Assembly: GCA_021904315.1 (NCBI GenBank) | Contig: CM038916.1 | Span: 6,971,065-7,035,064, forward strand | DNA: 64,000 bases | Reading direction: 5' to 3' | Source: Sphagnum magellanicum | Lineage: Eukaryota > Streptophyta > Sphagnopsida > Sphagnales > Sphagnaceae | Part shown: positions 6,698 through 51,900 of the stretch, piece after piece | Layout of the letters: every line of letters begins with the position of its first letter | How positions within the stretch are numbered: position 1 is the first letter of the stretch | Notes under the pieces: generated by a model | What the model saw: the letters and a program-made list of their open reading frames with translations, nothing else | Told to the model about the DNA's origin: nothing | The model's database searches: none | Translations under genes and position numbers: made by a program

Positions 6698-7364
6698 CGG
6701 ACGAACCATGGGCAAACACGGACTCACAAGACTCACCACGACCTGAACCCTTATAGTATTTTCTATGCCTAGCCACGGGGCTTGCACCCAATGTCATTTT
6801 GTCTCGAGACTCCCAAGTTGGGAATCTTGAAATTCCTGAAATTGGGATTCTTACAACTTTGAAAGCCCATAACTTCTTCTACACACCTCTGATTGAGGTG
6901 AAATTCAAAGCAAAGTTGTATTCTTCGTTAAAATCTTTTCAACGATATGTGGCAAGCCACCTTCACGTAAGTAATTCAAGGCGGTTCCTGACTTTTAATG
7001 GTTGGGAGTCAAATTGATAGTTTAACTCCCGACTCTTTTTTGGGTCATAACTTATGTTTTAAGTACTCAAATGCTTCATGCAAGCCCATTTTAAACATCT
7101 AGGTTCCAAAAGCTTTCCAATGGTATAAAAAAAATTTCAATCTAATGATTCTTGACCTTTGCAATTGCCCTTTGAAGATTCAAGAATCCATTAAAACTCC
7201 AATTCCCAAAGTGGAAGCCCACTTGAGAATGTGTGGGTTCATTCCCTCACACTCTCCTCCACTTTCGAGAGCATGAAATGTGACTCCCAAGCTTCATTCT
7301 CAACTCGCACCTTTGCAAGCTTTTGTTTTGGTTGCGAACCTAAAGCTAAGGTTGCAACATCTAG

Positions 7365-8347
7365 ATTCATATTTTAGAAATGTTTAACAAATCCTTGCCT
7401 CACATTATTTTCAATAAATGGACATTCATTGATCTAATGACAATACGTGCATTATGGAAGGTTAAGTTTTGGAACTTTATTCATACTATGAATTCTTTTA
7501 CTTTGGTCTCTTGAGACTCCTCTAACAATGGATCCATTTTACTGATTCAATTGGGGTTCACTATACCTAACTTTAATAGCCACATGTACACCTTGTGTTA
7601 TTGTTGGTGCGATTTTTAGTAAAATTACAATTTTTTGTTTAATTACAAATATTGGCTCAACTCCTTTAAACATTTTGATGCCTTAAGTTGTGGCTTCTTG
7701 TTCAACCACATAATGAATTAGAGGTTCAAAATTCTAAGCTTTTTGTTCAAACTTTAAATTCTCATGGTCTTTTCAATATTAAGGAGGTGAAGCAAATATG
7801 TACCTTGGTATTATTTCTTCCTTTTCTAATTTGTTGAATATTTATTCTTTTTCATACATCAAAGTTCTGTTGTTGCATCAAACATGGTGATTCTAGCACA
7901 ACTATTTTTCAAGCTTCATATTCCCGATTCCTTTGTCTAAATGTATCTTGTGAGTTTGCATTTTCAATCTTACATTTCTCTTTCTTAGAATTTCGTTGTA
8001 GATTACCAGTGTGCCTATGTGTTTCACCAATTTCACTATTTTCCACTTGTTCATTAATAAAACCTAATTTAATTATCTCCTAAAAATTTTAGTTACATTT
8101 ATATTTTCCATCTCTCCACATTTTAATTCAAATCTAAACAATCTTTTGCATTAAAACAAAACCTTCACAATTAGTTACTCTACTTAGATCTACATCGTGG
8201 AGAAAAACTTATGATCAAGATTTGAAAAAAAATGCAAAAAATGAAACTGAAGTTCACCATCTATCTATAAAAACAAAAATTTCAACAACAAGACGTAAAC
8301 AACATTTTGAAATCACTATGAATTCAGGCTTTGGGATGGTCACCAAA
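7365..8347 (-). other. Probable untranslated/leader part of the gag-bearing element, no gene
   Basis: This lies between the inserted solo LTR and the right terminal repeat. It is AT-rich, with no open frame worth calling. Read on the minus strand it follows the right repeat directly, beginning near TGGTGACCATCC, where a primer-binding site would be expected. I cannot match that to a particular tRNA. Confidence 0.35.
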
Positions 8348-14577: not shown

Positions 14578-15377
14578 GTGTTTGCGTGCGGGCGCAAGAG
14601 TTGCTCGTTTGCGGTGGGTTCTGTGTTGTTGTTTCTTGCGCTTGCGGTCTGCTCTTTTGCTGCGATAGCGCTTGATGGTCTTGCTTCTTTAGTTCCTGCA
14701 ACCATGTATGTCTTTTTCTTTTGGTCTTCTAGTTTCGATTGATGTTTTTTTTTGGTCGGCCTTGAGGACGTTGAGAATATATCGGTCGTTGTTTTCTTCC
14801 TCTCTGTTTTGCGCATTCAACAATTCCAGGGCGACTGTAGTAACGGCGATCGCGAGTAGGCCGCTGCTGCTGTCGTATGTGTGTGTTTATGTGTTTTGGT
14901 TCTCACAGGATATGGCTGAGTGTGGAGAGTTTTCATTTCTGTTGACGTTGTGAGGAGGTGGGAGGAGTAAGAGGAGGAAGAAACGACGGCGGGGAGCTAG
15001 CGGTCGGAATTTTTCGGTAGTTTGTATATTTTGCAGCAGCAGTTGGGCCTGATGCGAACGCCATCAGCGCATGTGGTGAGTCGCTCGTGTTTTTCGCGAC
15101 CGCGGTCGCCTTCTTGTATTCCTTTACCGTAAGTTCGTTCTTCCAGAAGATGTTGTTTCTACTGCTTGATGCGCTCTGAGAGCAGAAGAAGACGTAGCTG
15201 TTGGCCGATGCCTTGAGGTTTCAGATTCTTTTGGTTGTTGAGCACTGTGTGAGCGAGCGGGGTGCATGTCAAAAGCATCTAGAGGACGGAAAGGAGACCA
15301 AAGACGAAGGGGAGGGGGATCGACTTACAGGGAGAGGAGAAAGGTAGGACATAGAGAGAGGTAGGGTAGCGAGGCTG

Positions 15378-18300
15378 ATGAGTCGGGGCGATCAAGGCGG
15401 CTGCTGTTGTAGCGCAATGTACGCAGGTACTCCCACATTTGCGTCCAAGACCGAGCATATTATGTCAAGGTACCGTCCCATCGCACCGAAGCCGCTCGCT
15501 CCCAAGCCCACCGAGGGCGGCACTAGTACAGCAGACCCGTTAGATCCGCAGACTTCTTCCTCGCTCTCCTTGGACAAGGGCTCCAGCAAAGGAGGAGGAG
15601 GAGGAGGAGGGGGAAGCCGGAGATCGCGCAAACGGCCGCAGCCGCAGCAGACAGATTCCTCGACATCGGCATCGACAATCAACGCGAAGAAAGCTTCCAT
15701 CATCCCCAGTGAGAATAAGGGCCGTAGTAGTGATGCAGCAGCGGCAGGAAGCAGATCCAGCTGCAAGACGACGACAACGACGCCAGGGGGAACAACACCC
15801 AGGTCTAAACGAAGAGAACATAGTCCTTCTCCTCTTCCCCACAACAACGTCGTCTGCAAGGAGGTCGCAGTCGGACTGACGCCAATTCTGAGTGAGAGCG
15901 TGGCGCCCGTCTTTGGCCCTGGCGGCCTGCAGAGATTCAACGAAAGCTCGGACCGCAGCAGCCGGCAATCGTCGTACTTCGTCACTAGATCGCTCGTCAA
16001 CAACAACAACAATGAGAGCAGCAAAAGCTACGGAGTCGCAGCGAGGGATAACAGTTCGGTGAAGCTTGGCTTCCCTGGAGGCAGCAGCAGCAGTTGGAAC
16101 GCTGTAGCAGCACCGAGCCTCCTTTTGCAGCAGGAGATGATGCCGTTGCGAGAAACAGAGGATGCGGCTTTCATGGAGCGAGCGGCGGCTGCAAACTCGC
16201 CAGTTTTCTTGGGAGAGGTAAGTAGGAGCGGGATGTCGAATCAGCGGTTAGGTGGTTTCCCAGGGCTGAGCTTTGCAGGGGAGATACTCAAGGGGTCTCT
16301 ACCGGCAGCAGTAACAGGACCAGCGCAAGGAACAACAATGCCTGCTGAGCCAGGGATGATGCAGCAGCAGGAAAAGCATCAGTCATCGCTTCCTTCCAGA
16401 GACACCGGTGGTTGCAGCACGGTATTGATCAAGTCCAATGAGTCGTCTCTCAGAGGTGGTGGTGCTGCTTTCATGCCTCTGCCATATGCTTCTGCCTCTT
16501 ACGGTGCTGAGAGTGAGGTCTGCTCAGGTGAAGATGTTGCAGAGAGCAGGAGGACAACGACAAATCTTGTAACCCTCTCTTTGCTACCAGATGCTCCGAT
16601 ACATCCAGAAGGGCCCTCATCACCATCTGACTCCTCCTTCCCTAGTCCTTCTTCACATGCCAAGTCCAAATCTTGCTTTCCAAGCTCTCACAGGTATGGT
16701 GGTTCCAGTGTGGATTGGAATGTTGAGGGCGTAAGGAACCACCACCAAGCTGCTGCTGCTGTTGCGGATACCAATCTGACCATGTTCAGTAGAGGAGAGT
16801 GGCTGGTGGATCAGGAAGAAGAATGCAGGGACTCAACTACAGGTGGTGGCGACAAAGAGCTTACAAAACTTAGGAGGAAATCTGATAGCATGCTCTTGAC
16901 AGACAATTGTTTCAGGCCTGTGGCTGCTAGGGACTTTGTGGAGCAGGTGAGCGGTGGTTGGAGGACTCAAACTCCTTCTCCTCCTCCTCATGCCATAATA
17001 CAACACTTGCCAGTGGCAGGAGCAGTAGCAGGGAGTGACAGGCAGCAGCAGGCTCTTAATGAACCGGTGGTGGACTCATACTATCTGGATCATGTGTATG
17101 CAACCTCATCTGATGCTGTGATGCTCACAGATGAACAAAACAGGATTCTGTGGTCCAATTCTGCATTCCAGAGAGCAGCTACTGAGAAAACAAGTGGCAA
17201 GATGCAGGTGAGTTTGGTCTTAAGAACTCTCTCACCCACCCACCCGCTCTCATTCCCTCGTTCCTAGAGAGAGCATGAACATTCTCTTGCATTCTCTCTG
17301 TGCCTGAGCATTCTCTCTGTGCCTGAGCATTCTCTCTGTGCCTGAGCATTCTCTCTGTGCAGGCCTGTGTTCCCTTTCTGTTTCTCTTTACACATGAGGA
17401 AAATAACTGATCTCCCTTCTGCACCGGATCTAGAGTCCAAAGGTTTCATGAGTTTCTGCTATCAAAGGGCTTCCATTGTTTTGCCACTCTGCTGCTGTTC
17501 CAAAGCCATTTCCTTTTCCTGTATCTTCTACCACCAGAAATGGCTCTATACTTAATTGACCTACTGGTTCTGGCTTCACCAGTCATAACATCACAGGGCC
17601 AATACTATAGGGAAAGTAGTCTTGGTTTCTTTAATGGGTACTTGCAGAGGGATACAGAAAAGTGGTGCTTATGTACAGAGTGCATGAGTTCAGCTGAGAG
17701 ACACTGTGATATTCACATCCGAATCTGAAACTGTCTCCATTGTGGAAGAGAGAGGAACCTTGACATTCCTTTCAAAGTCTCCTCTTGTAAGCTGTCAAGG
17801 ATGTTCCTGGTCATGAAGACTCTAATGGACTCTGTCTGTGCTTTTCCCTGGTCCAGTCCGCAGGTCCACATATTGATCCACTGGGGATTCCAACTCAACT
17901 AGCAGTTCTGATGTTTCAGCCTCCATACCATGCTGCCAAGTGTAAGGCTGTGCTATGGGGTTTCTTGAAGAAATTCATATTCCAAGAGGTTGGTCCATGT
18001 TTTGCTGAGAGCAGACAGTTGGGAGAATGGAAATTGTCGCAAGCCCAATCGCATGAACATTCTTATGACTCAAGAACAGTGTCGTTTGATGCATCGATGG
18101 TTCCAAAGGACGGTGTTGTCTATGAAGGGGACCTCTCGTTAGGTCTGTCACCCCACAAGGTTATTGCTCCACAACCTATCAAAGCTGCTGAGTCCATGAT
18201 TTGTCTAGAGTGTATAACCAAGGTCAATCCACTGATGTCTCCCATGATGGGAACACTGGAGGCTTTCCAGGATCAGCTTGAGAAGCTGCCTTTGCCAACC

Positions 18301-18654
18301 ATAATCACTGATTTCAGACACAAAGTACAATGGGTTAACACAGCATACAAACACATGGTAGGACGGCCTGAATGTAGCTGGTTAAGCTCCGTGGTTGGAG
18401 GGAGCAGGGAATCAGAAGCTTATTCAGAAAATCAAATAGCTGGAAATGTCTCATTTATTTGTGCTGGTGAGCAACCCCCGGTGGATGCAGCTGAGTTTTC
18501 TTGTCAAGTTCGGATACAGTGGACGAAAAGTGGAGGGGAGAAGAGCTCACTTGTCTTCCCCACGGATGTGATAAGACTGGATGACAACAGCAGAGGTCCT
18601 TTGTTTGTTTGGAAATTTAATATCTTCAATGGCCATCTACCATTAAGAATTTGA
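15378..18654 (+). CDS. DUF7950-like plant protein with a PAS-like C-terminal half (two exons)
   Basis: I place exon 1 at 15378-17207 and exon 2 at 17857-18654. The junction is CAG|GTGAGT to GGTCCAG|TCC, phase 0, giving about 875 aa. The N-terminus carries SRYRPIAPKP (residues 30-39), resembling a conserved motif I recall from plant DUF7950 proteins. It is followed by a Gly run (72-79) and basic patches (RRSRKR 81-86, RSKRREH near 143) that could be nuclear signals. A long Ser/Ala/Gln-rich, probably disordered, region follows. The C-terminal half has two PAS-like segments: AVMLTDEQNRILWSNSAFQ before the intron and PTIITDFRHKVQWVNTAYKH in exon 2. It ends in CQVRIQW...VFPTDVIRLDD..FVWKF, which looks like the DUF7950 core. 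Molecular function is unknown; nuclear location is inferred. The start is the first Met before the conserved motif; residue 29 is a possible internal start. Confidence 0.75.
17289..17361 (+). repeat. 19-bp tandem repeat in the intron of the DUF7950-like gene
   Basis: GCATTCTCTCTGTGCCTGA repeats almost perfectly at 17289, 17308, 17327 and 17346, the last unit partial. It lies about 80 bp after the splice donor. Confidence 0.9.
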
Positions 18655-37738: not shown

Positions 37739-38042
37739 AGGTAAAAAGAAGATGAAAAGAGATAACATGGAGGGTAAGTAAAAGTGGGATGGACCATGGA
37801 CAACAAGACCTACTGTTTGTTATGTTTGTTATTTTTGTGCGGTAATTTTGATTTTTCCCCAGGTCGTCTTCTTCTTTGGTGCAGTGCGGTGGAAGAGGGG
37901 AGGAAGTAAAGGAGACGAAGGGAAGGAAGGAATTATGCGCAGAATTGGAGTAGCACGGGGCGGGCGGACGGGCGATGGGAAAGATTTTCTAGCTGAGCTT
38001 TGAAGCGATTTTGGCATATTCTGACCATCCTCTGTCATAGCT

Positions 38043-40102
38043 ATGGAGGTGCTGGGAAATGGGTTTTTGTCAAAATCCAACATTTGCAATTCTTCCAGCA
38101 GTAAGGATGTTGTTGTTCCGCTGAAGTTCTTCTCTCCGCATCAATCTTCTAGCTCCACTGCATTGTTTTCGAATGGCCGTTCTTGGTACTCCTCTTCTCT
38201 TGCTCGTCTCCCGAGATTCAGAACCAGAAGTGGTGGATGGATAAGAAGGTGTGGATCAGGGAAGATAGAAAGTGTCGCAGTAGCAACAGCGGCAGTGGTA
38301 GTAGTAGCGGCTGCCTCTTCTGCTGTTGCGGACTCGGTCAATACGACGGCAGAGACAACAGCAGCAGCAGCAGCAGCAGCGGGGGGCCTGCAGCAGGTGC
38401 TTCTTCGACCCACGGCAGCAGAGGCGGCGCGCACCGTAATGGAAGTCTGTGTAGAGGGTACGCTCTCGACTTTATCACAGGATGGATGGCCGTTGGGAAC
38501 TGAAGTCCGATTCGCAGTGGATGTGGAGGGTAACCCTGTTTTGCGTCTACAACCTTCAGCATTGCATACCAAGAACCTTCTCTCGGATAGTCGCTGTAGT
38601 CTACATGCCCAGGCAAGACTCCTCCTCCTCCTCCTCCTCCTCCAGTACAACAACAATGCTCACAGACAAGCTTCTGTTGTAAACCTAAGATGTCACTCTT
38701 TGCACCAGTCATTGTTTTAGGCAGGAACTAACTACTTTGTAGAGTTGGATGTTCGGTTTCTCCTTCTTCTCAAATTTCTGGTGGTAACTTTTTTCGGGTT
38801 GAGAGCAGCTGGAGCAACCAGGCAGACAAAAACCACAATGCACATTGCGGGGCCGAATCGTAAGAGTGGATGAGTCCAAGCTCAAAGAGGTAACAATCAC
38901 TTGATGATGAGATCTTGTTGCAAGTTCTCAAATACAAGACTGAGGGGAATCTAAGACAAACCATCTTGTTGAACTCATCCAGATGGAGTTTGCATGGGAG
39001 AGGAGATTTGGGAAGGAGCACATGCATGATGATGATGCCCTATATATGATGAAAGTGGAGCAAGCGCTTCAAGCCCAGGATATGGGTGAGGTGTGTTGAA
39101 ATTACTGAGATTCAGCTGAATGACAGGGCGTGATATCCTGATTTTGTTATTTGGAAAGGGAGGATGATGATGATGATGTCGTTGTTTGGGTCTTGATTGC
39201 ACCAGGAGGAGACTTGGGTAATGGGGACAGACTACAGTGCTGCAGTTGCTGATCCATTGAGAGAGTGTGCACCCCGAATTGTGGAAGACATGAACCGCAA
39301 GCACTGGGAAGACATTCGTCGGTTTTGCAATGTTTACACTCACTTGGATGCAGAGGTTAGCTGCCTCAGCCCAACTGGTCAAATTCTCTCTCTCTCAATA
39401 GGAATGCTGATCCTGAATGTGTATGGGCTGCCCTAAATCAGGTGAACTCACCAATTATATCTGAGCATGTACCCATTCTTAAGGTTTATGTAAACTGGCC
39501 AAGCAAAAACAGGTAGACCCTTCCCTCAAAGAGACAGGGAGAACCCAATTGTGAAGCAATTAGACCCTCTCTGAGCTCCTTGACTTGTGGCAAACACTCC
39601 TACAAAGACAACTATTGCCTTCTAAGAGCTGCTGGAGGCCTGGTTTTTTTCGCAGTCTCATTATAGTTGTTGCCTGGTGCACCCCAAAAGCTTTCAGTAG
39701 GGCTATTGTTTGCTGTTGGATCTATTCTGGCATGGCAAGCCAGATGTCCACAGGGAACATCATGGCTTTAAGTTCCACCACCAACCCCACAGCCTCTCTC
39801 TAATGAGTTGTGCCAACTAGGTGCAGAAAGCCTCACACACTCTCTCTCTCTCTCTCTCTCATATCTGACTCTTTCTTATGGTGCAGTTGGAGGAGGCCAG
39901 TATGACATGGGTGGATAGGCTTGGATTTGACATGCGAGTGCTCACATGTGAGCCCCACAAGATCCTGGAGATTCGAATCCCATTCCCTCGAGAGGTAACT
40001 GATGAGAGAGATGCTCGCTCAGCACTCACAATCATGGCACAAATTGCTTGGGAAAAGGAGCGCAATTATAACCCTGCAGAAGCTTTATTGGCAAGTGTCT
40101 AG
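38043..40102 (+). CDS. GBP: Chloroplast glutamyl-tRNA-reductase-binding protein (GBP/PGR7-like), five exons
   Basis: Exons are 38043-38612, 38809-38889, 38983-39090, 39206-39355 and 39887-40102, all joined in phase 0, giving about 374 aa. The N-terminus is Ser/Arg-rich with an Ala run, as expected for a chloroplast transit peptide. A flavin-reductase-like split-barrel domain follows (VEGTLSTLSQDGWPLGTEV near residue 140, then LLSDSRCSLHAQ). The C-terminal part (WEDIRRFCNVYTHLDAE, SMTWVDRLGFDMRV, IRIPFPREVTDERDARSAL) matches the DUF2470-like half of Arabidopsis GBP/PGR7. That protein binds glutamyl-tRNA reductase, the entry enzyme of tetrapyrrole synthesis, and protects it at the thylakoid; mutants affect photosynthetic electron flow. 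The first intron has a non-canonical GC donor (CCCAG|GCAAGA). The last intron carries a (TC)n tract. The final few residues are less certain. Confidence 0.87.
39839..39860. repeat. (TC)n microsatellite in the last GBP intron
   Basis: A pure TC run about 25 bp upstream of the exon 5 acceptor. It may add to the polypyrimidine tract. Confidence 0.9.
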
Positions 40103-41991
40103 AGTTCCAAAACAAAACCTTCTTTCTTTAGAGGGTTCTGAATCAGGCTGGAGAAGCTTAAACCCGCAAGTATCAATTTGAGATTAGGGCACTTATGCTA
40201 CAGCTTCAAGAGGAATTATCTAGCAAACATATGTGCAGCAAAGCTATGAACACTCTTGGGATGACAACCACAGAAGTGGCTGTCTTACACATCTATTGGG
40301 GATTTACACTAAGGAAACAAAGAAGCAATTGGCTCCTTTAGTTTTTCACCAACACCCACGGATTCATGCATGGCTGGGAGTACACTGGCTGAGACATTTG
40401 GACATGATACTGAAACCTGGAAGCTTCATGGTGAGTTCTTCGCAAGCAAGCACCTGTATTTGAACTGATCATCTGCGCACTAACTTGGACAAGAGAGCAA
40501 ATAATTCCAAATGTCTGCAAATAAGTTCAAAATGTTTTATGTCTTTGCAATTCAATTTCTGCCTCCCATGGGCTGTTTGCATTCTTGCCGTTTGAATGGA
40601 CCTCGGACATGTAGCCCAGCCATGTTGAGTTCTCAACAAGGAACCTAAATGCAATGCATTTTGTTTCACAAATTGAACCTGTGCAAAAACTTAAATCACA
40701 CTTCATTCCAAATGGTGACATCAATTCCCACAAAGAATGTCACAGGGGTAGAATTCTGTGGGCCAATCAACACACAAGGGGGCAGCTGAATCAACCACCT
40801 CTACTTTTAACATTGTGCAAATCATACCATATTGTAGACTGAGATGGCCTCATAGATCTGGAAATGCTGTCATTGCCACACCATAGTTGAGCTTTTCAGA
40901 AAGTTTACTGACATCTAGCATGCCATCAACCTACATGAGGCAAAAACCTAGTTCTCACTAAAACAAAACTGGGATGAAGTTCAATTCTCCTCCTTACAAT
41001 CATCTAGAGGTCCCTCTACTATCATATGAATTGGAGAACAAATAACACACCAACCTTAAGAAACCACTATTCTCACATCACAAATGCATATCATCCCACC
41101 ATCATCAACAAAACTTGCACATTGCCAACTAAAAACATCCATAATGAAAAGCCTTTTCATTGCCAAGTAGCTCAAAATGTCCATAATGAAAAAGCTACTC
41201 AATGGACCCAACATTGTGAGTGAAAGCCATTTCTCACTCTATTAATTAGGGTTTAAGGTTCAAGGTTAAAGCCTAAGAACCCTCAACAACAAACTAGATC
41301 ACTTGTTTACCAATCACACCTCATCTTGCACAACCCACCATCCATTGTGCATTTGTCTCAATGAGAGCTCAACATCAAGGTAGGGTGGCATCTTCAAATC
41401 TAGCAAGCATGATATATAACTCATATTTTGGCACTGAGGCATTAGGGGCTAAGGAGGTACCATAGCTTCATTAACTCAGGTTAGAGTTCATCCACTATGG
41501 AGTTGGACAAAGTTTGCATGCATTGGTGTGCTAGTTCACTCAAGCCTCTTCCCTTGGGGTTGCAGGGCAATTGGAAGGGCTGCCCCTTTGGATGGACTTG
41601 GAGGACCACAAAGTACATTTACTCCAAGTTGGATCCACAACAATGTGAATTTTGGACCATTGTGAAGACCCAACCATGTTGACATACATGCATCCACCAA
41701 CTCAAAATGTGCCCGTATATGAATTGTTGGATAATTTTAATGGAGCTATGAATCAACATTGGGCGGTTCCTAGGTTCTAGGTGGAACCTTTGGTTTTAGT
41801 TCCAAACAAATTTCAAGGCACTTGTTTGGATTCCTTTTTTTTGGGTTTTTTTAATGTTTTATAAATATTTTTAGATTGGACATGGTTCCAATTCTAGTTT
41901 TTTTAATTTAAAGGGTCATTTTTCTCATTTTTCAATTAGGCTGGTTTCAATTCTTAGTTCCATAACCTCCAGTTTGAAGTAACCTTTGGGT
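40103..41991. other. Intergenic DNA between GBP and the retrotransposon
   Basis: No gene is supported; the open frames are short and lack recognisable features. From about 41730 the sequence contains GGTTCC-rich words up to the left end of the retrotransposon. Confidence 0.5.
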
Positions 41992-41996
41992 TTTGT

Positions 41997-42041
41997 CATG
42001 CCCGTACATGGCCTCATACACGATGGCCATTTACGGGCATG
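41997..42041. repeat. Hairpin 1, left copy
   Basis: CATGCCCGTA pairs with TACGGGCATG, with an inner TGGCC/GGCCA stem. The right-hand copy at 51432-51476 has CATGCTCGTA and TACGAGCATG: the base that changed on one arm is matched on the other, so pairing is kept. Confidence 0.85.
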
Positions 42042-42241
42042 CCCATCATGCCTTTTAGGGTTAATGTATGCTTTTAGGGTAAGTGTACGTTCTTAGGTGA
42101 TTGTATGCTATTAGGTGTCTAGGGTTTCAGCTTGTTGGTGCTTGTATAAAAGGCCAAGCCTTTCTCTTCTCTTTTTAATTTTTTTAGAATTTTTTTGTCA
42201 AGAAAGTTTCTTCCATAATCAGATAGGATTTCTAGATGTTC

Positions 42242-42266
42242 ACGGTGGTTATTACATGACCACCGT
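42242..42266. repeat. Hairpin 2, left copy
   Basis: ACGGTGGT pairs with ACCACCGT around a 9-nt loop. The right-hand copy (51658-51682) has ATGGTGG and CCACCAT, again a paired change (C-G to T-A). Confidence 0.82.
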
Positions 42267-42304
42267 TTACATACATTACATGTTCGTCCTTCTTTGCAAT
42301 TTAA

Positions 42305-42972
42305 TTTTAGAAAAACTCTACTATTTGTTGCTTAATGTTGAAAGCGACAAATTTCTTTTGCCTTTGAGTTCTTGAGTTGTTACTACTAGTGTTGCTACTA
42401 CTAGTGTTATTGCTGTTGGAGGGAGCATAAGTTGCTACTAATGTTGCTGCTGGTTTTGTTCGAGGGAACTGGCGTTGTTACATTTATGCCAACCAACAAA
42501 ACAGGTTTCAAACTTCCGCCCCCCTTCTTTTTGTCTTTTTCACTTTTTTTTTTTTTTTTTTTTTCCTCTTTTTCACATGTAGAAATGTGCCATCCTGTGG
42601 CGAAAGGTCTTGAAGTTGTCAAGTAAAAAAAACAAAAAATTTGGTGGCAGCATTCGCCATCGCTATCGTGCCGAGATGTTCGTTCGACGTCCAACGTCTA
42701 TTGGCTTCCATGCAACGTCGAACGACGTCTGTTGTCGTCCACAAACTTCCGTCTGATTATCACCCTATGTCCTGTGTCCTACGTTTTGTCGTCTTGCCTT
42801 TTCGTCTGACATCCATTTGACCTCCGTCCAATGTCCATTTAACCTCCGTTTAACGTTCGTTTACTACCAGTCATTTTCAACAACACACCATATTCTTCAA
42901 ACTATACGTTGTGTTAAAATTTTGTAGCTAAGGCTTTATATTACTGTAAATTTTTGGGGCATGGGACAACAC
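42305..42972 (+). other. Retrotransposon leader region
   Basis: Non-coding, between the left terminal repeat and gag, with GTTGCTACTACTAGTG-like repeats at 42380-42445 and a poly-T run near 42548-42565. I could not identify a primer-binding site with confidence. ACGTCCAACGTC-like words recur at 42685-42860. Confidence 0.45.
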
Positions 42973-44280
42973 CATGTCTTCAGATGATGAGAGCACTGCT
43001 GCTCATCCAGAGCCAAGGTATCAGTTATGAAGTAACACACAATCCTTTGAACCAATATCTTTGAGTTCATGATCTTCCCAATGGTACCATCAAACATCTA
43101 CAACGCCATCATCATCTAGTACAACTCCTATTAGGAATTCAAGTTTAGGTTACACTACATTAACGATACATCAAAGTCCATTTGGAAAGGTTAATTAGTG
43201 GGGTACACCTACTGCTGCACCTGCTTTCACACCATCATCGTATATACTACTCCAAGCCGTAACCTCTACGCCCATATACACCATGGAAGTCAGTAGTTCT
43301 TCTGGGAAAATTAAGAAATTCAACGGAAGGCCAGGTATCATTTCTTTGAAGGAGTTCAAGGCAACTTTCTCAACTGTGGTTTATGAATTGGAGCTCAAAT
43401 ATGGTGCTAATTACACCGAGGCGTTTGCATTCAAACAATTGGCCCATTATGTGCACTATGAGGCATTGGATGTCTACAAACAATATTCTATAAGGATTTT
43501 GGGCATCACCCAGATTCCCAATCCAGCTTACACCATAGCCATCGCCACCGCCTCTCAAGTTGCAATTGCACATCATGGGACTGTGCCCAATAATCCAAAC
43601 CCGGTACCTACCTCAGTAAACCTTTATCCTCAACAACTCATTGTTGTTACCGTAAACATTCCTCCCACCATCGATGTGCCAGCTTTTGCTAATCCAGTGG
43701 GGGAATTCTTTCGAATTCTTGAGCTGGAATTTACTGTCAAGAATTTTGAAAAAATTATGCAGCTTGCCACCTTCTTTCAATAAAAGGATGAAACCTTCAA
43801 AATGCTATACAAGAGGCTTCTCAAACTCAAAGAGGATACCTAGAACATCACAGACCTAGAAATTGCCCACTGGTATTTTCGTTCGTTGGAAGGTACTCCA
43901 ACACTCCATGTGCAGGTTTTGCAACAAGTTTTTACAGAATTTGGAAACTCGTACATTTTGTTGGATGTGTACAACATTTCCGAAAAGTTGGAACTGGCTC
44001 ATGCACACTATGAGGCCAATACTATGAGGTCGCCATCGCGTTCAAGGCCTTAGCCTACACCAAGTGCGCTAACTAGATCATCACATTCTTCTTCAAGGGC
44101 TAAAGCTATACACTCGGCTACACCCATCCTACCTTCTTGCAACTACTGTGGCAATCCTACCCACAAAGCTAGTGAGTGCAACATTCCTTCCGAGGATCTC
44201 TTTTGTGATTATTGTGGGAAAAAGGGACATCAGGAAACTATCTATTTTGCCAAGTTCTCGCAACGGAAGTAATTCCAATT
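42973..44280 (+). pseudogene. gag: Gag relic with two CCHC zinc knuckles
   Basis: A possible gag start is the ATG at 42973, which runs into a stop after 18 codons. The longest open piece is 43283-43783 (166 codons). After a stop the homology continues in frame as FKMLYKRLLKLKED and LEGTPTLHVQVLQQV. A nucleocapsid segment follows: CNYCGNPTHKASEC (44138-44179) is a complete CCHC knuckle, and CDYCGKKGHQETIY (44204-44245) is a second whose last Cys has become Tyr. Gag packages the element RNA into particles. A downstream Leu/Gln-rich stretch (about 44410-44510, HAIQVQTLQNELESLRAQL) looks like a short coiled coil. Several stops and frame changes show it is inactive. Confidence 0.75.
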
Positions 44281-44963
44281 ACCATAGCAAAATCTACTAA
44301 CATCTTCTATTCTCCCTCAACTAAAAGCCAAGGCACCTCAACCTTCCACTCAGGCTTTGCCCACCAACGATGATTCCAATAAAAATGCTAAGAAGAAATA
44401 ACAGAATGCTAACAAGAGGGAGGTGCTTCAAGCCCATGCCATTCAAGTTCAAACTCTACAAAATGAACTCGAATCATTGAGGGCCCAACTTGCTAATCTA
44501 AAAAGCAAGTCTTCCCAACCAACTAATCATGCCCCAACATGTACAAGGTTTAGGATCACGAGAGGGACCTCCTAGCTCGTTTTATGGCCTCCCACATAAT
44601 GCCATGGTTGGGGAGTATGTTCTTTCCAGTGCAGACAATTGTAGTCTCACACCAGAACTTATTACTTCTTTTTGCCCTTCTTATGTCGTAGCATAAGAGG
44701 CTAGTGTGGCACCCAGAGTTTCTACCACTAGGTAGGTAATTCAAATTAATGAACTCACATTTGGTTCAAGTCCTATTACTAAGGCTAGAGGAGCTCGAAC
44801 AATCATGCCACAATCTTTTCGTCCTCTCAACACGGAAGAAGAACACACCTTGTTGGCGAAGGGGGAGGAGACTACTACACCACAAGTTATTAGGGCATCA
44901 AATTCTCGTGTCCTAGGAGTACATGTACATTAAAAAAACACACAATTTTCCATTGATCAACTT

Positions 44964-45640
44964 ATGGAATGCCATTTTCAAATGTGTGAAGTGGCACAAA
45001 AGCTTATGAATACACCCTTGTTTAGTTTTCAAAATTTGAAGCTAAGCACCAAGGACATAAGTGCATTATTAAAAGATACCTCAAACACTACATCAGGTCC
45101 TCTACCAATCCCTGATCCACATGCTACAAAGGTTCCATCCAACACCTTGGAGAGACACTCAATTGGCTCACGTGTTACAGATGGCATTCGTAATTTAGTC
45201 ACTAGTTCTAGCATGGCTAAACTAATGGGCTTTCCTACCTCTGATTTTACATTCACATATTAGAAGGTAATTAAAAACACCTCACTTGTGGATTTGTTGC
45301 TCAACAAAGTTGTTGTGGATAACCATTCTCTCCACAAAGTCTCTCACTCATTTCCGAAGGTGGTGCCTAGTGAGAGAACTTCCATCGCCACCGAAGTTGC
45401 CATTGTCAACAATATTGGGTCAACAATCCAAATGGGAGGACATACACCCAAAGTGGTACTCCTTGATACAAGTGCCCAACTAGTGACTCTTGGAGTTCAA
45501 TTCATCAAGAAGATGGGCATGCTTGATTCGAAACTACGGAAATCTATGTGGCAGATTCGCACCATTAGTGGGAACGTAGAGGAGGTATTTGGGGAAAGCT
45601 CGGATTTGATTGCACTTAACTTCAATGAAGGTACAAATTA
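44964..45640 (+). pseudogene. Retroviral-type aspartic protease relic
   Basis: The frame shows VPSERTSIATEVAIVNNIG, then GGHTPKVVLLDTSAQLVTLG at 45435-45495, the expected position of the D-T/S-G-A active site of retroelement pepsin-like proteases. Here the Gly is Ser (DTSA). The preceding open piece (44964-45263) is the gag-protease linker in the same frame. The enzyme would cut the polyprotein into mature parts. A stop ends the segment at 45641, before the methyltransferase. Confidence 0.7.
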
Positions 45641-46104
45641 GGAGCTTTGCTTATAGGTCAGATGTTTAGTCACCAATGCCACTAATTATGATGTGCTCAT
45701 TAAGTAAGAGGCCCTGTTTCCACCAGGTTTCACAATTGACAACTAGTTCGAGCATGCGTACTACCAAATGGTTAGGAGACTAATGGCCACCACCTAGGAC
45801 ACATACCCCTTGATTTACATGGGAACCATAGTCCTATGGCTCACCATTGTATGCTCAAGGAAACACACACTATTTCTTATATCCAACAAACTAACCACGA
45901 GTGGATACAGGGAGATGAAGAGGAGATAGCTTATGTTCAAGCTACTGAAAGCTTGAAGGTGGTTCCTACTAACATTCAACATGAACAAAAGGTTTTACGT
46001 AGGTTCAAAATAGCCTAGGAGCCCTTGGTCAAAGTTCTGTCTAGTTTTGAGAGCATGGAGAGCCATGGCAAACTGATTAAACCAGTACTTCGTCAACTAA
46101 TCAC

Positions 46105-47064
46105 TTGGACACCGCCTAAGGAGGGGATTACATTACTAAAACTCTTTGGTGGTATTAGTACAGGTCTCGAAACCTTACTACAGTCAAGGATGGTGGTTCG
46201 GAGGTATTTCTATGTAGACATTGATCCTATTGCAAGGCAAATGGCAGCATCGAAAATGATGGAGCTCAACCAAATTTCCACAATAGTTTGCAACCATCGC
46301 ACGGAAGGCCAGTTTCACTTTCTTGCCCTTTGACATACAACTAATTCAAAAGAAACATATGGAATTGCTTGGCCTTGTTGACCTCATCATTTTAGGTTGG
46401 GAGTGTCAAGGATTTTCAACAGCTGGATTTGGAGAAAGCTTGAGTGACACAAAATCCGGTCTCTTCACGGACATGGTATGATTAATCACTTAGGCTCAAT
46501 TCATTTCTCCTACGCTTGGTTATGTAATTGAAAACACCCCTTTTTAGCTTGACCAAAGGGGAAAGTCCAAGAGCACTACACGTTGGTCAAACATTACCTA
46601 GGAAAGGCACTCCTACTTGATGTGGCACAATGCAATTCCTATGCACATCAACTACACAACTAGTGGACCAACTTATCACCACTTTCAGTTCTACAGCTGG
46701 CTCTAAGATACACTATCAGAGACCCCAACCTGCAAGTTTCTCACATATTAGATGATCAAAGTTCTTGCCAACTAGTTACAAGGTAAGAGAAACCTCCTTG
46801 GTTTCTTGCGAACACAATAGGAAACTAATAGGTGCTTGGCCCACCTTTATCTCCTTCCTAGGAGCACATGCCTTTTCGGGAGATGGACCAAGCTTAGTGT
46901 ATCGTTATGCTTCAACCACTTGGGATGAACCAAGCCTAGAAGAAAGAAAAAAGGCTATGGAGTTCCAAGCTGGCATTACTAATCACACTAAGGTGACTAG
47001 ATTGGAACACAACGCTCTACTAGGGAGAGGCATGGACTTGAACTTCCTTACATGGTTGTTGGTA
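46105..47064 (+). pseudogene. Cytosine-5 DNA methyltransferase domain (DNMT3/DRM-like) inside the retrotransposon
   Basis: Signature blocks of C5-DNA-methyltransferases appear in canonical order over about 960 bp. Motif I is LLKLFGGISTGLETL (46133-46175), the S-adenosylmethionine site. Motif II is RYFYVDIDPIA (46202-46234). Motif IV is DLIILGWECQGFS (46380-46418), with the catalytic Cys after Glu rather than the usual Pro. Motif VI is VIENTP (46523-46540). A block resembling the 'RYFWGNLP' of DNMT3 reads HQLHN(stop)WTNL. Motifs IX-X are DEPSLEERKKAMEFQAG and ALLGRGMDLNFLTWLL (46923-47061). The fit to DNMT3/DRM-type spacing (motif I 'LFDGIATG', 'SGLFTDMVRL', 'LLGR') is better than to bacterial enzymes. 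It sits between protease and reverse transcriptase. At least one frameshift (near 46270) and several stops inactivate it. Confidence 0.82.
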
Positions 47065-47391
47065 ACATGTGTACTCTTTCAAATGTACACAACACTAACA
47101 CTTATTCAATTAACTTGCAGTTCTAGTGATGCAATCACATGGCACCCTGACCAAGTACATTTACTTATCTTCAACACTCTACATTTCATTATTAGTGTTG
47201 GGGGGGAGGAGGTACCATGTAATTTGATTCAAGTTGTGTCTAATACACCTGGAAGTACATTAGCTTTTAGAGAAAAAATTATAACCTTTTACGAATCTAC
47301 GCAGTTGGATAGTGGAGAACCCAATACACCAGGTTCTTCAAACACACTTTCCAACTCAATTCCATGTGTTTCCAACTACCCTTTCGTTATG

Positions 47392-49640
47392 GGGAACCAG
47401 TTCACCAAGAAGGAGAAAGACCAAGTCAACAACTTGCTAATTAAGTATGAGAATGTGTTCGCATTCTCAATGAAAGACTTAAGTAGGTGTAAGACCATGC
47501 AATTCTCTGTAGACCTTACAGATGAAACACCCGTCTATCGGAGGAGGCATAGGTTGAACAAACATGAATGGGAATTAGTAGATGAAAGATGTAAAGAGCT
47601 CCATGAAGTTGGTCTCATTCAGCCATCAAGTTTTGATTTTGCAGCCGCTACAATAATGCTAGCAAAAAAAGATTCAATTAAATTATGGACTAAAAAAAGG
47701 ATGTGCGGGGATTATAGGCCTTTGAACTTAATTACACCCCAAGACATGTACCCTATGCCCATCCCTGAAGAATTATTTGATAACATTAGAAACTCAAACA
47801 TCTTCACAATTGTGGTTCTGAGGCAAGGTTTCAACCAAATTGTGTTCGCTACGAAGGATCGCAAGAAAACGACATTCCATGGAAATAACAAGTTGTGGGA
47901 ATGGCTTATGATGCCTTTTGGATTAAAAAATGCACCTATCTTCTTTCAGCGAGTCATGGACCAAGTTTTCGAAGGGGCAGATTTCCTGAAGTGTTACATA
48001 TGATGCGGTCCCAAGTTCCTAGTTAAACCCAAAATGGGTTTAAGTTACTCAAATAGCAAAATTGTGAGGAACTTGGGGCACGCTCCCAACTCTTAGCACT
48101 AAAAGGGGTAGAGGGGTGTGTTAAAGCTCCAGGATGGGACTAGGAAGAGTGACAAGCATTAGTTACTTATTCGAACTTATATCAAACCAACCAACAAGTT
48201 GGTTAGTTCACTTTTTGGAACACCTTTAGTGCTAGGACAGGCCATAGGCAACTTTTGATTCACAAGACTCACCACAGCCCGGACTCAAAGGAAACCACCA
48301 CCTTCCCCAATATAATATTTTTTGCACTTCTCTGTGCCACCCACATCCGAATGACTTTTTGTCCCAAGACTCCCAAGGAGGAGTCTCAAAATTATCCCAG
48401 TTTAGACTCCCAGGACTTTGCAAGGTCATAACTCTTTGCTTAGACTTCTTATTAGGATGAGGTCTGAAACAAACTTATAGTGCTCCTTGAGAGCTTTTCA
48501 ATGGTGTGTCGCACTCCACCTGTGCACACCGAGGTCAAGTTGATTCCTGACTTTTAGTGGTCGGGAGTCAAATTGCCAGTTTGACTCCCGGCCCTTCTTT
48601 TTGCCATAACGTGTGCTATAGATGTCCAAATGGCCCATGCAAGCCCATTTTCAACATCTACATTTCAATAGCTTTTCAATGATATAATAAACACCCCAAT
48701 GCAAGGTGTTTTGACCCCTGCAATCGAACTCTGAAATTTTGGGAGTCCCAGAGGACTCCCAAGTCCCCATTTTGGGAGTGTGAGTTTCATCCCCACTTTC
48801 TCAAAGTAGGGTTACGACAACATAGATGACGTCCTAGTGCATAGCAAGGGACTCCTGCAGCACTTGGCTCATCTTGAGGAGTTATTCAAGAGGCTCCACG
48901 AAGTCAATATGAAGATTCATCCTAAAAAGTGTGAACTTGTTGTCACCTCAATAGTCTACCTTGGACACAAAATTTTGCCAAATGGTATTATGGCTCATTG
49001 GGCCAACATAATAATCATTTTGGAGATGCCCAATCCTACTGATGTTCACACATTGAAGAGCTTCATCAGATTATGTAATTACTACAGAAGTTATGTTCAA
49101 GACTTTAATACTATCACCCATCCTCTCTATGCATCATTAAAGAAGGATGTTGCTTGGACATGGAGTGATGAGGCTTAAGAAGCTTTCAACACACTCAAGG
49201 AAAAGCTTTCAGAGTTCCCCATTTTGAGAAAACCTAATTTCAACAAGGTCTTCATTCTACACACTGACTAAAATGCTCTTGATATTAGAACTATTTTTGG
49301 CTAACTTGATGAGGAAGGCAAGGAATATGTTATCGCCTATGCATCCTGAAACAACAACAAGGCTAAAAGCAATTACTCTTCCTAAGAGGGGGAGTGCCTT
49401 GTTGTTGTAGAGGCCGCTATACATTTTAGGCCCTATCTTTATGGCACCAATTTCACTTTGTATACCAACCACCAGCCTATCAAGTGGTTAATGACCAACG
49501 ATAAGCTTATTGGTAAATTAGCTCACTGGGTGCTTATACTTCAAGAGTATGAGTTCAAGGTTATTCACCAACCTGGTATTACACATTAGAACGTGAACAC
49601 CATGTTGCGGAAACCCCTCACTACCTCTAAAGATTTCTAA
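47392..49640 (+). pseudogene. pol: Reverse transcriptase and RNase H relic, split by a solo LTR
   Basis: The 46765-48003 frame runs from the methyltransferase end into reverse transcriptase without a stop: VNNLLIKYENVFAF, MQFSVDLTDETPVYRRRH, AKKDSIKLWTKKRMCGDYRP, YPMPIPEELFDNIRNSNIFT, WLMMPFGLKNAPIFFQRVMD and KCYI. The first catalytic Asp (FxxLDL block) is Val here (IVVLRQGF). The YIDD box is divided between YI (47994-47999) and DD (48825-48830) by the 819-bp insertion. After it come DDVLVHSKG, NMKIHPKKCELV and the connection region. RNase H-like sequence follows from about 49200 (VFILHTD, YVIAYAS, LYTNHQPIKWL) with stops. This is a typical Ty3-type RT-RH arrangement. Confidence 0.85.
48001..48819 (+). 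mobile_element. Solo LTR inserted in the YIDD codons of the reverse transcriptase
   Basis: The 819-bp insertion starts TGATGCGGTCCC and ends GGGTTACGACA. The perfect 5-bp target duplication is ACATA (47996-48000 and 48820-48824). It is collinear with the outer LTR at 5540-7359, and in reverse with 5777-6697, so it belongs to the same family, which is not the family of the host element's own terminal repeats. No internal region is present. Confidence 0.93.
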
Positions 49641-49779
49641 AAAGCTAGGCAAAACTTTGACCGAATTCCAATAATACATGTATCTAATGCATCTAATTAT
49701 CTTACACTATTACAATGTAACTTGGTTGAACATCCCATTGTGGATATATGGGAAGACTTGGACACTTTGAAGTTTCTTC

Positions 49780-50980
49780 AGCATGAGGAGTACCCTCCCC
49801 AAGTTACATCAAATCATCGAGATCGCATATAACAACGGTCCAAACGTTATTCATGGAGGGACAATCACCTCATTCGATGCTTACCACAAGGCAACAAAGT
49901 GGTTCCTCCACCACATGAACAGCCTGGTCTTATTCAAAAGGTACACTCGAAGCTTGGACACTTTGGAGTTAAGGGTACTTATAGCCTTTTTACTCCTCAT
50001 TACCATTGGAAAGGTATGTATGCTCAAGTCTGAGACATCATTACTAGGTGTGAACAATGTGATAGGGTGAGAATTTCTTTTTCCTCTCGACAACTCACGC
50101 TTTCTCCACTCCCTATTCAAGGCATGTTCTATCGCTAGTCATGTGATTTAGCTGGATAATTACCACATACCTCCAGGGATAATGTCTACATCATGATTAT
50201 GATTGAGCATTTTTCAAAGTGGGTTGAACTTGTTGCGCTACCAGACAAATCATCAAATAGCACCAGCCAGGCTTTCTTACAACAAGTCCTAAGTAGGTTT
50301 GGGGCTTATGCTAAATGTCTTACTAATCAAGGATCAGAATTCAGGGGAGAATTCCAAGACCTACTTGACCATGCTCTCATTGACCATCATCGGACTTCAA
50401 GAGATCATCTTCAAGCTGATGGCCTTACAGAGAAGATGGTTCAAACGTGCAAAAGGGACTTCGAAAGATTTGCCTCACTAAGAACAAAGAGGATTGGGAC
50501 CTAGCCCTCCCTTACATTGTCATGGGTTACATGATGTCCAAACACGCCTTTTTGTTTCATTTTTCTCCTTACTTTTCACTTTTTGGGAGACATCCCATTC
50601 CACCTTCTTCCATTGCTGCTCAAATGGACCAGGTTGTGGACTTGGACTCCCCAGCCACTTAGGCTAAGGTCATTGCAGAAAGGGCTACTCTATTCAAGAG
50701 GGTTATGCCCATGGCCATGGAAAACTTGTTCATTGCATAGCATCGAGACACCTTACGATATGCACACACACAAGGTGGCAGTTACAAACCTAAGGTGAAA
50801 TAATTTGATGTTGGTGATCTTGTGTATCTCCAGTAGCAACCCAATGATACTCTAGACACTTTTTCCGGTCGCATTATCTTGAGGATTAAGGCGATCAAGC
50901 CTTCAAGTGTGTTGGAGTGACAAGGAGTTGACGGACGCACAATTTGGGATCATTCCAAATTGTGCGCCCTGCCACCTACC
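49780..50980 (+). pseudogene. Integrase relic (HHCC, DDE core, GPY/F-like end)
   Basis: An HHCC zinc domain is visible as HSKLGHFGVKGTYS...HYHW...CEQCDRV (about 49945-50070). The core follows with CDLAG (first Asp; near 50140), MIMIEHFSKWVELVALPDKS (about 50193-50255), LTNQGSEFRGEF where the second catalytic Asp is Asn, and DGLTEKMVQTCKRDFE for the Glu. After a frame change come EDWDLALPYIVMGYM and the post-core segments. A GPY/F-like tail (FDVGDLVYLQ ... FSGRIILRIKAI) ends near 50980. It would insert element cDNA into chromosomes by DDE chemistry, and is inactive here. Confidence 0.8.
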
Positions 50981-51035
50981 AAACTTGGATCCTACCATCA
51001 TGACGTTGACTTGGATTCCTCCACTTGATTATCCA

Positions 51036-51170
51036 TGTCAGGTATGTTAGAGGACAAACGATGCTGATCAGATGTTGCTTTGCGATAACTGTAATGGTGG
51101 ATACCATCTCTTCTGCCTCAAGCCGGAGCTTACTCAAGTTCCCGCCAACAATTGGTAATGTTCATCATTA
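51036..51170 (+). pseudogene. PHD zinc finger after the integrase
   Basis: The reading gives CQVC, a stop, then RTNDADQMLLCDNCNGGYHL, FCLKPELTQVP, ANNW, a stop, and C. This is the C4HC3 layout of a PHD finger: C-x2-C, an acidic loop (DADQMLLCDNC), H-x2-C and a final W-x-C. The last Cys is Leu in this copy and two stops are present. PHD fingers commonly bind histone H3 tails. In the same place chromoviruses carry a chromodomain, so it may have steered integration. It is one frame away from the end of the integrase, consistent with an indel. Confidence 0.82.
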
Positions 51171-51223
51171 TCTCCTATAGCACCATAATTCCTACTCAAA
51201 CCATGCCACGTTTTTCCCGGCTT

Positions 51224-51238
51224 AGGTATAGGGGGGGA
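51224..51238 (+). promoter_or_regulatory. Polypurine tract
   Basis: AGGTATAGGGGGGGA lies immediately before repeat A, the position and composition expected of a plus-strand priming polypurine tract. Confidence 0.65.
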
Positions 51239-51431
51239 TACATGAGAATTTCATCTCAACCTCTTCTTGTGCATTGTATATATGTGTGTGTGTGTGTGTG
51301 TGTGTGCATCCCTTTTTGTTTGATTAGTTTATACTTTTAATTAACTTTAGTCTTTTTGTTTAGTAGAATTTACTATGGATTTACACCTTTATAACACCGT
51401 ACATCATGACACTACACGTCACGATAGCTAT
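51239..51431 (+). repeat. Terminal repeat segment A (first copy)
   Basis: Starts TACATGAGAATTTCATC and ends ACGTCACGATAG plus CTA at the boundary with the core. It matches 51721-51896 at roughly 85-90 percent by eye. It contains a (TG)n tract at 51282-51306 that is much shorter in the second copy. The A/core junction is a perfect palindrome, GATAGCTATC (51424-51433). Confidence 0.85.
51282..51306. repeat. (TG)n microsatellite in repeat A
   Basis: A TG dinucleotide run present in the first copy of repeat A but largely absent from the second. Confidence 0.9.
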
Positions 51432-51720
51432 CATGCTCGTACATGGCCTCATACATGATGGCCAATTACGAGCATGCCAATCGTGCCTTTCAGGGTTAAT
51501 GTACGTTCTTAGGTGACTGTACGTTATTAGGTGCTAAGGGTTTCAACTTGTTAGTGCCTGTATAAAAAGCCAAACCCTTCCCTTTTCGTTTTAGTTTTTT
51601 TAGAATTCCTTTGTCAAGAGAGTTTCCTCCATAATTAGATAGGATTTCTAGATGCTCATGGTGGTTATTACACGGCCACCATCTACATACAATACATGTT
51701 CTTCCTTCTTTGTAATTCAA
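51432..51720 (+). repeat. Terminal repeat core (second copy)
   Basis: Partner of 41996-42304. It contains hairpin 1 (51432-51476), the TATAAA near 51561 and hairpin 2 (51658-51682). Together with segment A it makes a candidate 482-bp LTR, 51243-51724, with TG...CA ends. Confidence 0.85.
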
Positions 51721-51896
51721 TACATGAAAATTTCATCTCAACTTTTCTTATGCATTGTGTATATATATGTGCGTGCATCTCTTTTTGGTTGATTAGTTTA
51801 TACCTTTGATTGGCTTTAGTCTTTTTGTTTAATAGAATTCACTATGGATTTACACCCTTACAACATTGTACATCACGACACCACATGTCATGATAG
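51721..51896 (+). repeat. Terminal repeat segment A' (second copy)
   Basis: Repeats 51239-51431 directly after the core and stops at CATGATAG, the same point at which the left core begins. The downstream sequence is unrelated. Confidence 0.85.
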
Positions 51897-51900
51897 TTTG

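Follow-up and report, generated by a model that had tools for sequence, protein, structure and literature searches.

A methyltransferase within a moss retroelement

The moss Sphagnum magellanicum carries a large family of Ty3-type retroelements whose polyprotein includes a cytosine-5 methyltransferase, probably of the DNMT3-like class, and a PHD finger at the end of the integrase. One decayed member lies on the plus strand at positions 41994-51895 of the stretch analysed here (contig CM038916.1, positions 6,971,065 to 7,035,064), a window of 64,000 nucleotides, with a GTTT target duplication on each side. The order of the family is A, gag, protease, methyltransferase, reverse transcriptase (RT), RNase H, DDE integrase, PHD finger and then B or B-A-B, where A and B are the parts of a terminal repeat. 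The original prediction, made from the letters of the window, had placed a methyltransferase between protease and RT, on the same strand as gag to integrase, and this is confirmed by both Pfam and profiles built from relatives. The description as a Ty3-like element with a methyltransferase also holds; the PHD finger and the split repeats were absent from it.

The copy in the window is broken, with gag to RT running across several frames and the methyltransferase lying over three frames with stops. The open frame common to the methyltransferase end and the RT, which had been pointed out before, is indeed present (46756-48003, 415 amino acids), and the relative P0121 matches positions 46831-48000 with 85% identity in tblastn. 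Window pieces reach the Pfam cut-offs for PF00145, RVT_1, RT_RNaseH, rve and PHD, and those for protease and zinc knuckle stay below (the protease piece has an E value of 0.0059, whereas its relative P0066 is above the PF13975 cut-off).

PF00145 scores above its own cut-off on a single piece, 46287-46478 (E 8.9e-6; 25.8 bits versus a cut-off of 22). Two profile hidden Markov models were built from relatives, never from the window, and run over all six frames of the window. The distant profile, made from five relatives with 28-39% identity to the moss protein P0002, found five collinear pieces (positions 1-56, 64-125, 156-187, 190-228 and 237-326) with scores of 52.5, 53.6, 20.2, 19.9 and 60.3 bits. 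The next window piece scored 3.8 bits and the best of 50 dinucleotide shuffles 8.1; for the near-relative profile the best shuffle reached 9.9. The original prediction had staked itself on a profile match above background in one alignment, and this is what the five pieces give; the shuffle control rules out that the motifs were assembled by chance. Motifs are found at 46133-46171 (I), 46199-46240 (II), 46374-46433 (IV), 46521-46544 (VI), 46610-46660 and on (VIII), 46664-46902 (target recognition domain/pre-IX), 46921-46974 (IX) and 47014-47061 (X). The predicted order of motifs I, II, IV, VI, pre-IX and IX-X is therefore correct, and the earlier list missed motif VIII and the unusual motif IV, which reads GWECQ.

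When a family profile of five sequences was compared with solved structures, DNMT3C, DNMT3B and DNMT3A were the best matches (7e-10 to 1e-6), followed by a DRM-like protein (2.6e-5) and HhaI (1e-4). This family profile was needed, as single window pieces gave one HhaI row at E 0.33 in the PDB and two pieces gave no match. P0165, a protein of 325 amino acids with the canonical GWPCQ and no retroelement domain in view, matches DNMT3A at 1.5e-8. In a small tree of 13 rows, some of them on long branches and none of them a bacterial or bryophyte host DNMT3, a branch at 98/93 separates nine retroelement rows and P0165 from DNMT3A, DNMT3C and a Sphagnum DRM. The matches to solved structures support the assignment of the methyltransferase METHYLTRANSFERASE to the DNMT3-like class, and its motifs stand in non-rearranged order, as had been noted. 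The DRM class needs motifs VI-X ahead of I-V, and the order here runs from I to X. Among the host genes, L002 and L005 are rearranged and DRM-like and L016 is chromomethylase-like (class names given by eye); a DRM, chromomethylase or bacterial class was rejected because these host genes differ and HhaI and HaeIII score more weakly. No clear host DNMT3 gene was found among the three best Sphagnum matches to the DNMT3C piece, which have 33-38% identity over its first 106 residues and of which two are at DRM-like genes. An additional DNMT exon (open frame 477) was seen at C6:13160109.

The family in the genome and its conservation

We searched one genome of S. magellanicum (439 Mb, 31 contigs). 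It contains at least 124 PF00145 places, host genes included, and the proposed genome-wide search for less decayed copies was successful, as 10 of these 124 rows lie inside open frames of 1007-2379 amino acids with no stop in the match. Twenty of the 124 were sampled evenly, taking every sixth from rank 9. One of them, L016, is by eye a host chromomethylase-like gene and the other 19 are retroelements with a protease upstream of the methyltransferase (nearly 3 kb upstream in L014). A forward RT follows in 17 of the 19; it is reversed in L010 and absent in L019. In L010 an RT with RNase H lies reversed (6331-7923) behind the methyltransferase of the forward copy, and this is a nested or inverted element. 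Within the 9.9 kb fetched, 12 of the 19 have a PHD finger, and in the remaining seven the integrase end is missing or outside the stretch, or there is no PHD match. L009, L014, L020, L024 and L027 belong to a related subfamily; in the stretch fetched for them, nothing matches repeats A and B of the window element.

The search with the RT was scored for the best 150 places out of 3420 first-look candidates. A PF00145 place lies upstream in 56 of these, and the junction between methyltransferase and RT is matched in 87, of which 82 are complete on the methyltransferase side. Methyltransferase sequence is present in 55 of the best 60 RT places (49 with the junction and six with a PF00145 place), a count that includes L057 and L058, which have only the methyltransferase end, and that leaves the other five undecided. 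Five of the top 60 places without a PF00145 place were inspected; three have the methyltransferase, and L057 and L058 have none in 801 bp. Among the places listed, the lack of a methyltransferase is thus not a trait of this family, a possibility on which the first claim could have failed. The family carries the methyltransferase as a regular component and preserves it to about the same degree as the RT.

Selective constraint was estimated as Nei-Gojobori median dN/dS in three dS classes, with 11 to 23 copies per domain and 2 to 89 pairs per class; these medians include decay after insertion and the pairs are not independent. For the methyltransferase they are 0.378, 0.355 and 0.238 (N part) and 0.388, 0.336 and 0.285 (C part), compared to 0.375, 0.343 and 0.347 for the RT and 0.393, 0.374 and 0.227 for the protease. 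The integrase tail gave 0.284, 0.328 and 0.243, and the PHD finger, the most constrained domain measured, 0.154, 0.219 and 0.131. The values of the methyltransferase are close to those of the RT and those of the PHD finger are lower, indicating that the methyltransferase is kept about like the RT and the PHD finger better.

Relatives in other hosts

Of 2031 candidates in a search with the methyltransferase pieces, 251 matched with E values no higher than 1e-3, and the best 120 of these were listed; an X-padded form of the query gave 6 matches of 1537, and a profile of relatives together with the integrase tail and PHD finger of P0124 gave 647 of 8000 scored, again with the best 120 listed. The named hosts among the matches listed are S. 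magellanicum, Sphagnum compactum and the liverwort Calypogeia fissa, which widens the range to land plants as had been suggested. No sequence named Klebsormidium was among the matches listed (120, 6 and 120 rows), and a degenerate-pattern search for relatives in viral contigs and prokaryote genomes found none. Two S. magellanicum proteins are P0125 (CY35_01G105500) and P0124 (CY35_15G039600), the latter with the protease end, parts of the methyltransferase, the integrase and the PHD finger. P0123 (1214 amino acids) has gag, protease and methyltransferase in a single frame, and P0121 (820 amino acids) has methyltransferase, RT and RNase H in a single frame and matches DNMT3A at 3.5e-5. The Ty3-like nature of the element is borne out by P0121, which matches Ty3 RT/RNase H at 4e-62 (4ol8) and 9.5e-62 (7q5b), the enzymatic polyprotein 8r0s at 1e-45 and retroviral RTs at 3e-21 and weaker. 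Together with the order protease, RT, RNase H and DDE integrase, this supports an element that is Ty3-type by its proteins.

The position of the methyltransferase differs between relatives. It stands before the RT in the moss family, in P0156 and in a second Sphagnum family, and after the protease in the liverwort. In P0161 the methyltransferase METHYLTRANSFERASE is located between RNase H and integrase and in P0147 after the apparent end of RNase H (both assigned by alignment), and P0138 begins with the methyltransferase and has the integrase downstream. P0138 and P0156 score above the PF00145 cut-off, P0161 scores lower than it, and P0147 has no match. The three proteins with the second domain order, P0138, P0147 and P0161, form one side of a branch at 92/95. 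The methyltransferase may have moved within Pol, or there may have been two captures.

Several observations concern these relatives themselves. The second Sphagnum family (L001, L003 and L004 on contigs C14, C18 and C8) has a protease-like stretch, a methyltransferase and an RT in the following open frame; its RT has about 49% identity to the first family, its methyltransferase 43-44% to P0156, and GWPCQ is read in L001 and L003. P0138 has a G-patch domain between methyltransferase and integrase (residues 404-438), and P0138, P0147 and P0161 share a conserved stretch past the PHD finger that is Tudor-like by eye. P0161 continues in a long tail C-terminal to the PHD finger (residues 1291-1547) with the string IDPCSSSGKIA, which looks like a site for S-adenosylmethionine (SAM); a second SAM-binding domain was rejected, as the tail has no Pfam match at E up to 1.

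The PHD finger of the integrase

The PHD finger follows directly on the integrase tail and resembles those of KMT2D, KAT6A, ATXR5 and others. PF00628 is found at this position, and no chromodomain is among the Pfam matches of the window pieces and the relatives scanned. P0138, P0147 and P0161 also have a PHD finger past the integrase, and by alignment it occurs there together with the methyltransferase; P0156 stops inside the integrase core. The liverwort pieces end short of the integrase, and no PHD finger was seen in them. PHD fingers that bind H3K4me3 carry a cage tryptophan. The family has a glycine where this tryptophan would stand (aligned by eye), and therefore the finger likeliest reads histone H3 without methylation of K4. 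No report of a PHD finger on a retroelement integrase was found, by title or beginning of the abstract, in the literature searched, which leaves out most subscription journals.

Split repeats and target duplications

A full long terminal repeat (LTR) at both ends is absent. A is found only at the left end and B or B-A-B at the right end, and hence the element is Ty3-type by its proteins and not a canonical LTR element. All 12 left ends with A have no B before it, with 182-1215 bases of room. Thirteen right ends have B: a complete B-A-B is present in five (L011, L012, L019, L026 and the window), B-A in L015, where another element adjoins, B-A-A-B in L028 and B alone in six (L010, L013, L017, L018, L021 and L023). 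L022 and L025 yielded no right end, and L012, L026 and L028 yielded no left A. Exact 4-bp duplications flank seven of the nine copies with both ends resolved: GTTT in the window, AACT in L011, AATA in L013, TGAC in L017, ATGG in L018, AGGC in L019 and CAAA in L023. In L021 the duplication fits after a shift of 1 nucleotide and in L010 the two copies are unlike at one base. L015, which would be the tenth, was left out of this count because another element cuts its right end. Part A is tandemly repeated at the left end of L018, and two A matches occur at the left end of L025 and the right end of L028.

Across copies the B-A junction reads CACGACA-GC-TGTCATG or near it. A contains a TATA box; under the usual rule this makes B-A the LTR, with the ends of the integrated element lying inside it. 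We infer that a circle opened at B|A would yield both the long and the short forms; recombination between B1 and B2 could also convert long copies to short ones. The integrase is an rve (PF00665) DDE enzyme with 4-bp duplications and there is no tyrosine recombinase, so the element is not of DIRS type. In the literature searched, as far as its text was at hand, we found no replication scheme for a DDE-integrase element with split repeats and 4-bp duplications. The repeat parts of the window (41994-42305 versus 51238-51895) differ by 52 transitions and 6 transversions, an excess as expected of methylated DNA. By context, 41 of the 52 transitions are at CHG or CHH sites and 11 at CG.

Features of the window

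The coordinates of the element are collected in Table 1. The insert at 48001-48819 looks like a solo LTR from another element. Elsewhere in the window, a plant gene with DUF7950 lies at 17791-18651 (E 2.8e-14), to which the preceding frame at 15348-17264 (639 amino acids, no Pfam match) may belong, and a frame at 38025-38717 weakly matches CREG/PNPOx-like proteins (1.8e-5, below the cut-off).

Table 1. Parts of the retroelement and their positions in the 64-kb window
Feature	Positions	Strand	Evidence or remark
Left 4-bp target-site duplication, GTTT	41990..41993	.	Same as 51896-51899, exactly at the TGTCATG...CATGATA ends
Terminal repeat part A1, starts TGTCATG, TATAAAA at 42145	41994..42305	+	87.9% identity to A2 outside gaps, K2P 0.136
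gag, decayed; two CCHC-like knuckles at 44138-44179 and 44204-44245	43283..44533	+	tblastn, 68% identity to P0123 gag
Retropepsin-like protease, VVLLDTSAQ at 45453	45363..45770	+	63% identity to Calypogeia protein P0066
Putative DNMT3-like cytosine-5 methyltransferase, motifs I-X in order, three frames, motif IV GWECQGFS	46037..47064	+	Pfam, tblastn, profiles of relatives
Reverse transcriptase part 1, in a frame common with the methyltransferase end	47536..48000	+	PF00078 E 1.7e-11 (frame 46756-48000)
Nested insert of 819 bp inside the RT, TG...CA ends, 5-bp duplication ACATA (47996-48000 / 48820-48824)	48001..48819	.	Solo-LTR-like
Reverse transcriptase remainder	48820..49175	+	PF00078 E 4.9e-10 on 48810-49175
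RNase H	49179..49586	+	PF17917 E 3.2e-15 on 49386-49586
DDE integrase: HHCC-like finger 49950-50069 (by eye) and rve core	49950..50501	+	PF00665 E 5.4e-9 on 50160-50501
Integrase C-terminal tail leading into the PHD finger	50600..51025	+	tblastn with S. magellanicum P0124: 50447-50968 55%, 50958-51152 89% identity
PHD finger, integrase C-terminus	51030..51155	+	PF00628 E 1.2e-8 on 51051-51155; PDB PHD fingers best E 9.5e-11
Terminal repeat part B1	51238..51427	+	87.0% identity to B2 outside gaps
Terminal repeat part A2; B1-A2 junction CACGATA-GC-TATCATG	51428..51719	+	Repeat alignment
Terminal repeat part B2, right end of the element	51720..51895	+	Repeat alignment
Right 4-bp target-site duplication, GTTT	51896..51899	.	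Matches the left copy

Discussion

Transposons are normally the targets of methylation, and here a large land-plant family encodes a putative writer of this mark together with a candidate histone reader, both under selection. On balance we lean towards a reading in which the methyltransferase borne on Pol marks new element DNA and the integrase with its PHD finger places the copies in silent chromatin. As the methyltransferase is made as part of Pol, it would sit with RT and integrase in the particle or the pre-integration complex and could there set de novo methylation on newly made double-stranded DNA of the element. The C-terminal PHD finger of the integrase would read H3 tails without K4 methylation and direct integration into silent chromatin; new copies would then arrive already marked and in chromatin where they are tolerated. 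In host DNMT3 proteins the ADD domain reads H3K4me0 and the catalytic domain writes 5-methylcytosine; a reader and a writer in one polyprotein would copy this logic. The arrangement of the repeats suggests a circular DNA stage, opened at the B|A junction. A bolder version is possible and rather doubtful: a whole DDE-integrase lineage would carry an H3K4me0 reader and a DNMT3-type writer and insert pre-methylated copies through such a DIRS-like circle, and the pair would have stayed together although the writer switched between two positions in Pol. Its hosts would be mosses, the liverwort and perhaps algae.

Several results weigh against the reading that we favour. Motif IV is ECQ rather than PCQ in all 11 near relatives that cover it and also in P0138, P0147, P0156 and P0161, and the enzyme may therefore work differently or not at all; P0165 and the second Sphagnum family (L001 and L003) have PCQ. 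The preference proposed for the PHD finger is drawn from the missing cage tryptophan by a general rule. L057 and L058 match the junction between methyltransferase and RT only from residue 36 or 45; we read them as partial deletions of the methyltransferase. In a stricter set of open copies the median dN/dS of the RT was 0.65 (15 pairs, 0.07-1.08), and a single methyltransferase pair gave 0.14. KnitGypsy-Dnmt3, an algal element of similar make, produced no methylation in yeast, a result that its authors call inconclusive (PMC5890265). The replacement of Pro-Cys by Glu-Cys could have been fixed in a clade that had lost C5 methylation and kept the domain as a DNA- or RNA-binding or SAM-sensing module. 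This we consider rather unlikely, as the catalytic cysteine is invariant in the alignment of relatives, and the Glu-Asn of motif VI and the His-Arg of motif VIII are nearly so, which would be needless in an inactive protein. It is also quite unlikely that the enzyme acts mainly on host DNA or RNA and regulates the host methylome or the element RNA. PMC5890265 does consider methylation of RNA by LINE-borne DNMTs as well as effects throughout the host in Symbiodinium, but the position in Pol beside the RT puts the methyltransferase with the complementary DNA, and the RT-like constraint fits a role in the element's own cycle.

The repeats might also be ordinary LTRs, B followed by A, that deletion or recombination had cut and rearranged. 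Long copies could turn into short A...B copies by an exchange between B1 and B2, with the same target duplication kept, and in L010 and L025 the sequence fetched ahead of A is barely one B long. We find this very improbable, because every left end with A lacks B and a complete B-A-B stands at five of the 13 right ends with B, and because the duplications lie exactly at the start of A and the end of B in long copies (L011, L019 and the window) as well as in short ones (L013, L017, L018 and L023); independent decay to the same ends is unlikely. The simple LTR reading was dropped given this layout, A-coding-B-A-B, and its target duplications. The idea that a host DNMT fragment was inserted by chance into one retroelement copy has nothing in its favour beyond the decayed state of the window copy and keeps next to no probability: the same order in many copies, in another Sphagnum, in the liverwort and in distant relatives refutes it, as the original prediction had argued from the common frame.

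Chromoviruses are Ty3/Gypsy elements with a chromodomain at the integrase C-terminus. The moss element has a putative histone-reading domain at the same position in Pol, but this is a PHD finger and not a chromodomain; to our knowledge, chromoviruses have no methyltransferase. With DIRS/PAT-type elements it shares the split direct repeats, A-coding-B-A-B, but in place of their tyrosine recombinase it has a DDE integrase, and 4-bp target duplications flank it. In orchids, Gypsy elements with an AlkB domain are another case of a plant retroelement that took up an enzyme for modifying nucleic acids; there it is an RNA demethylase in an additional frame and not a DNA methyltransferase (PMC9289625).

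DNMT-bearing retrotransposons were known from the dinoflagellate Symbiodinium and the charophyte Klebsormidium (PMC5890265), which agrees with the range given in the original prediction. SymbioDIRS-Dnmt3 shares with the moss element a retrotransposon-borne methyltransferase of the DNMT3 class and split repeats, and it methylated CG in yeast; SymbioLINE-Dnmt shares the retrotransposon-borne DNMT. Both differ in their machinery, tyrosine recombinase or LINE, and in their dinoflagellate host (PMC5890265). The closest known element is KnitGypsy-Dnmt3 of Klebsormidium nitens, which has in common with the moss element a Gypsy-type Pol, a non-rearranged DNMT3-type domain, purifying selection and, according to the legend of Fig. 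4, Gypsy domains with DIRS-like repeats (PMC5890265). Compared by its published description, the moss element differs in its land-plant host and in the PHD finger of its integrase, which is not mentioned in the main text on KnitGypsy-Dnmt3, figure aside (PMC5890265). Methylase-bearing transposons have been stated to be absent from land plants (PMC6338049), and our finding contradicts this. Besides these two papers, no report on a land-plant or moss retrotransposon DNMT was found in the same literature, and the available parts of PMC8775202 and PMC9289625 mention none in land plants. As far as this literature goes, the land-plant occurrence, the PHD finger on an integrase together with a DNMT, the two domain orders, the ECQ motif and the 4-bp duplications beside the split repeats of an element with a DDE integrase are new. 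Methylase-carrying retroelements are thus not confined to algae. The moss element joins a DDE integrase to DIRS-like split repeats and clean 4-bp target duplications, and its methyltransferase and PHD finger suggest that it can tag its copies and direct where they go. The question of why a transposon should methylate DNA can now be tested in a moss whose genome is available.
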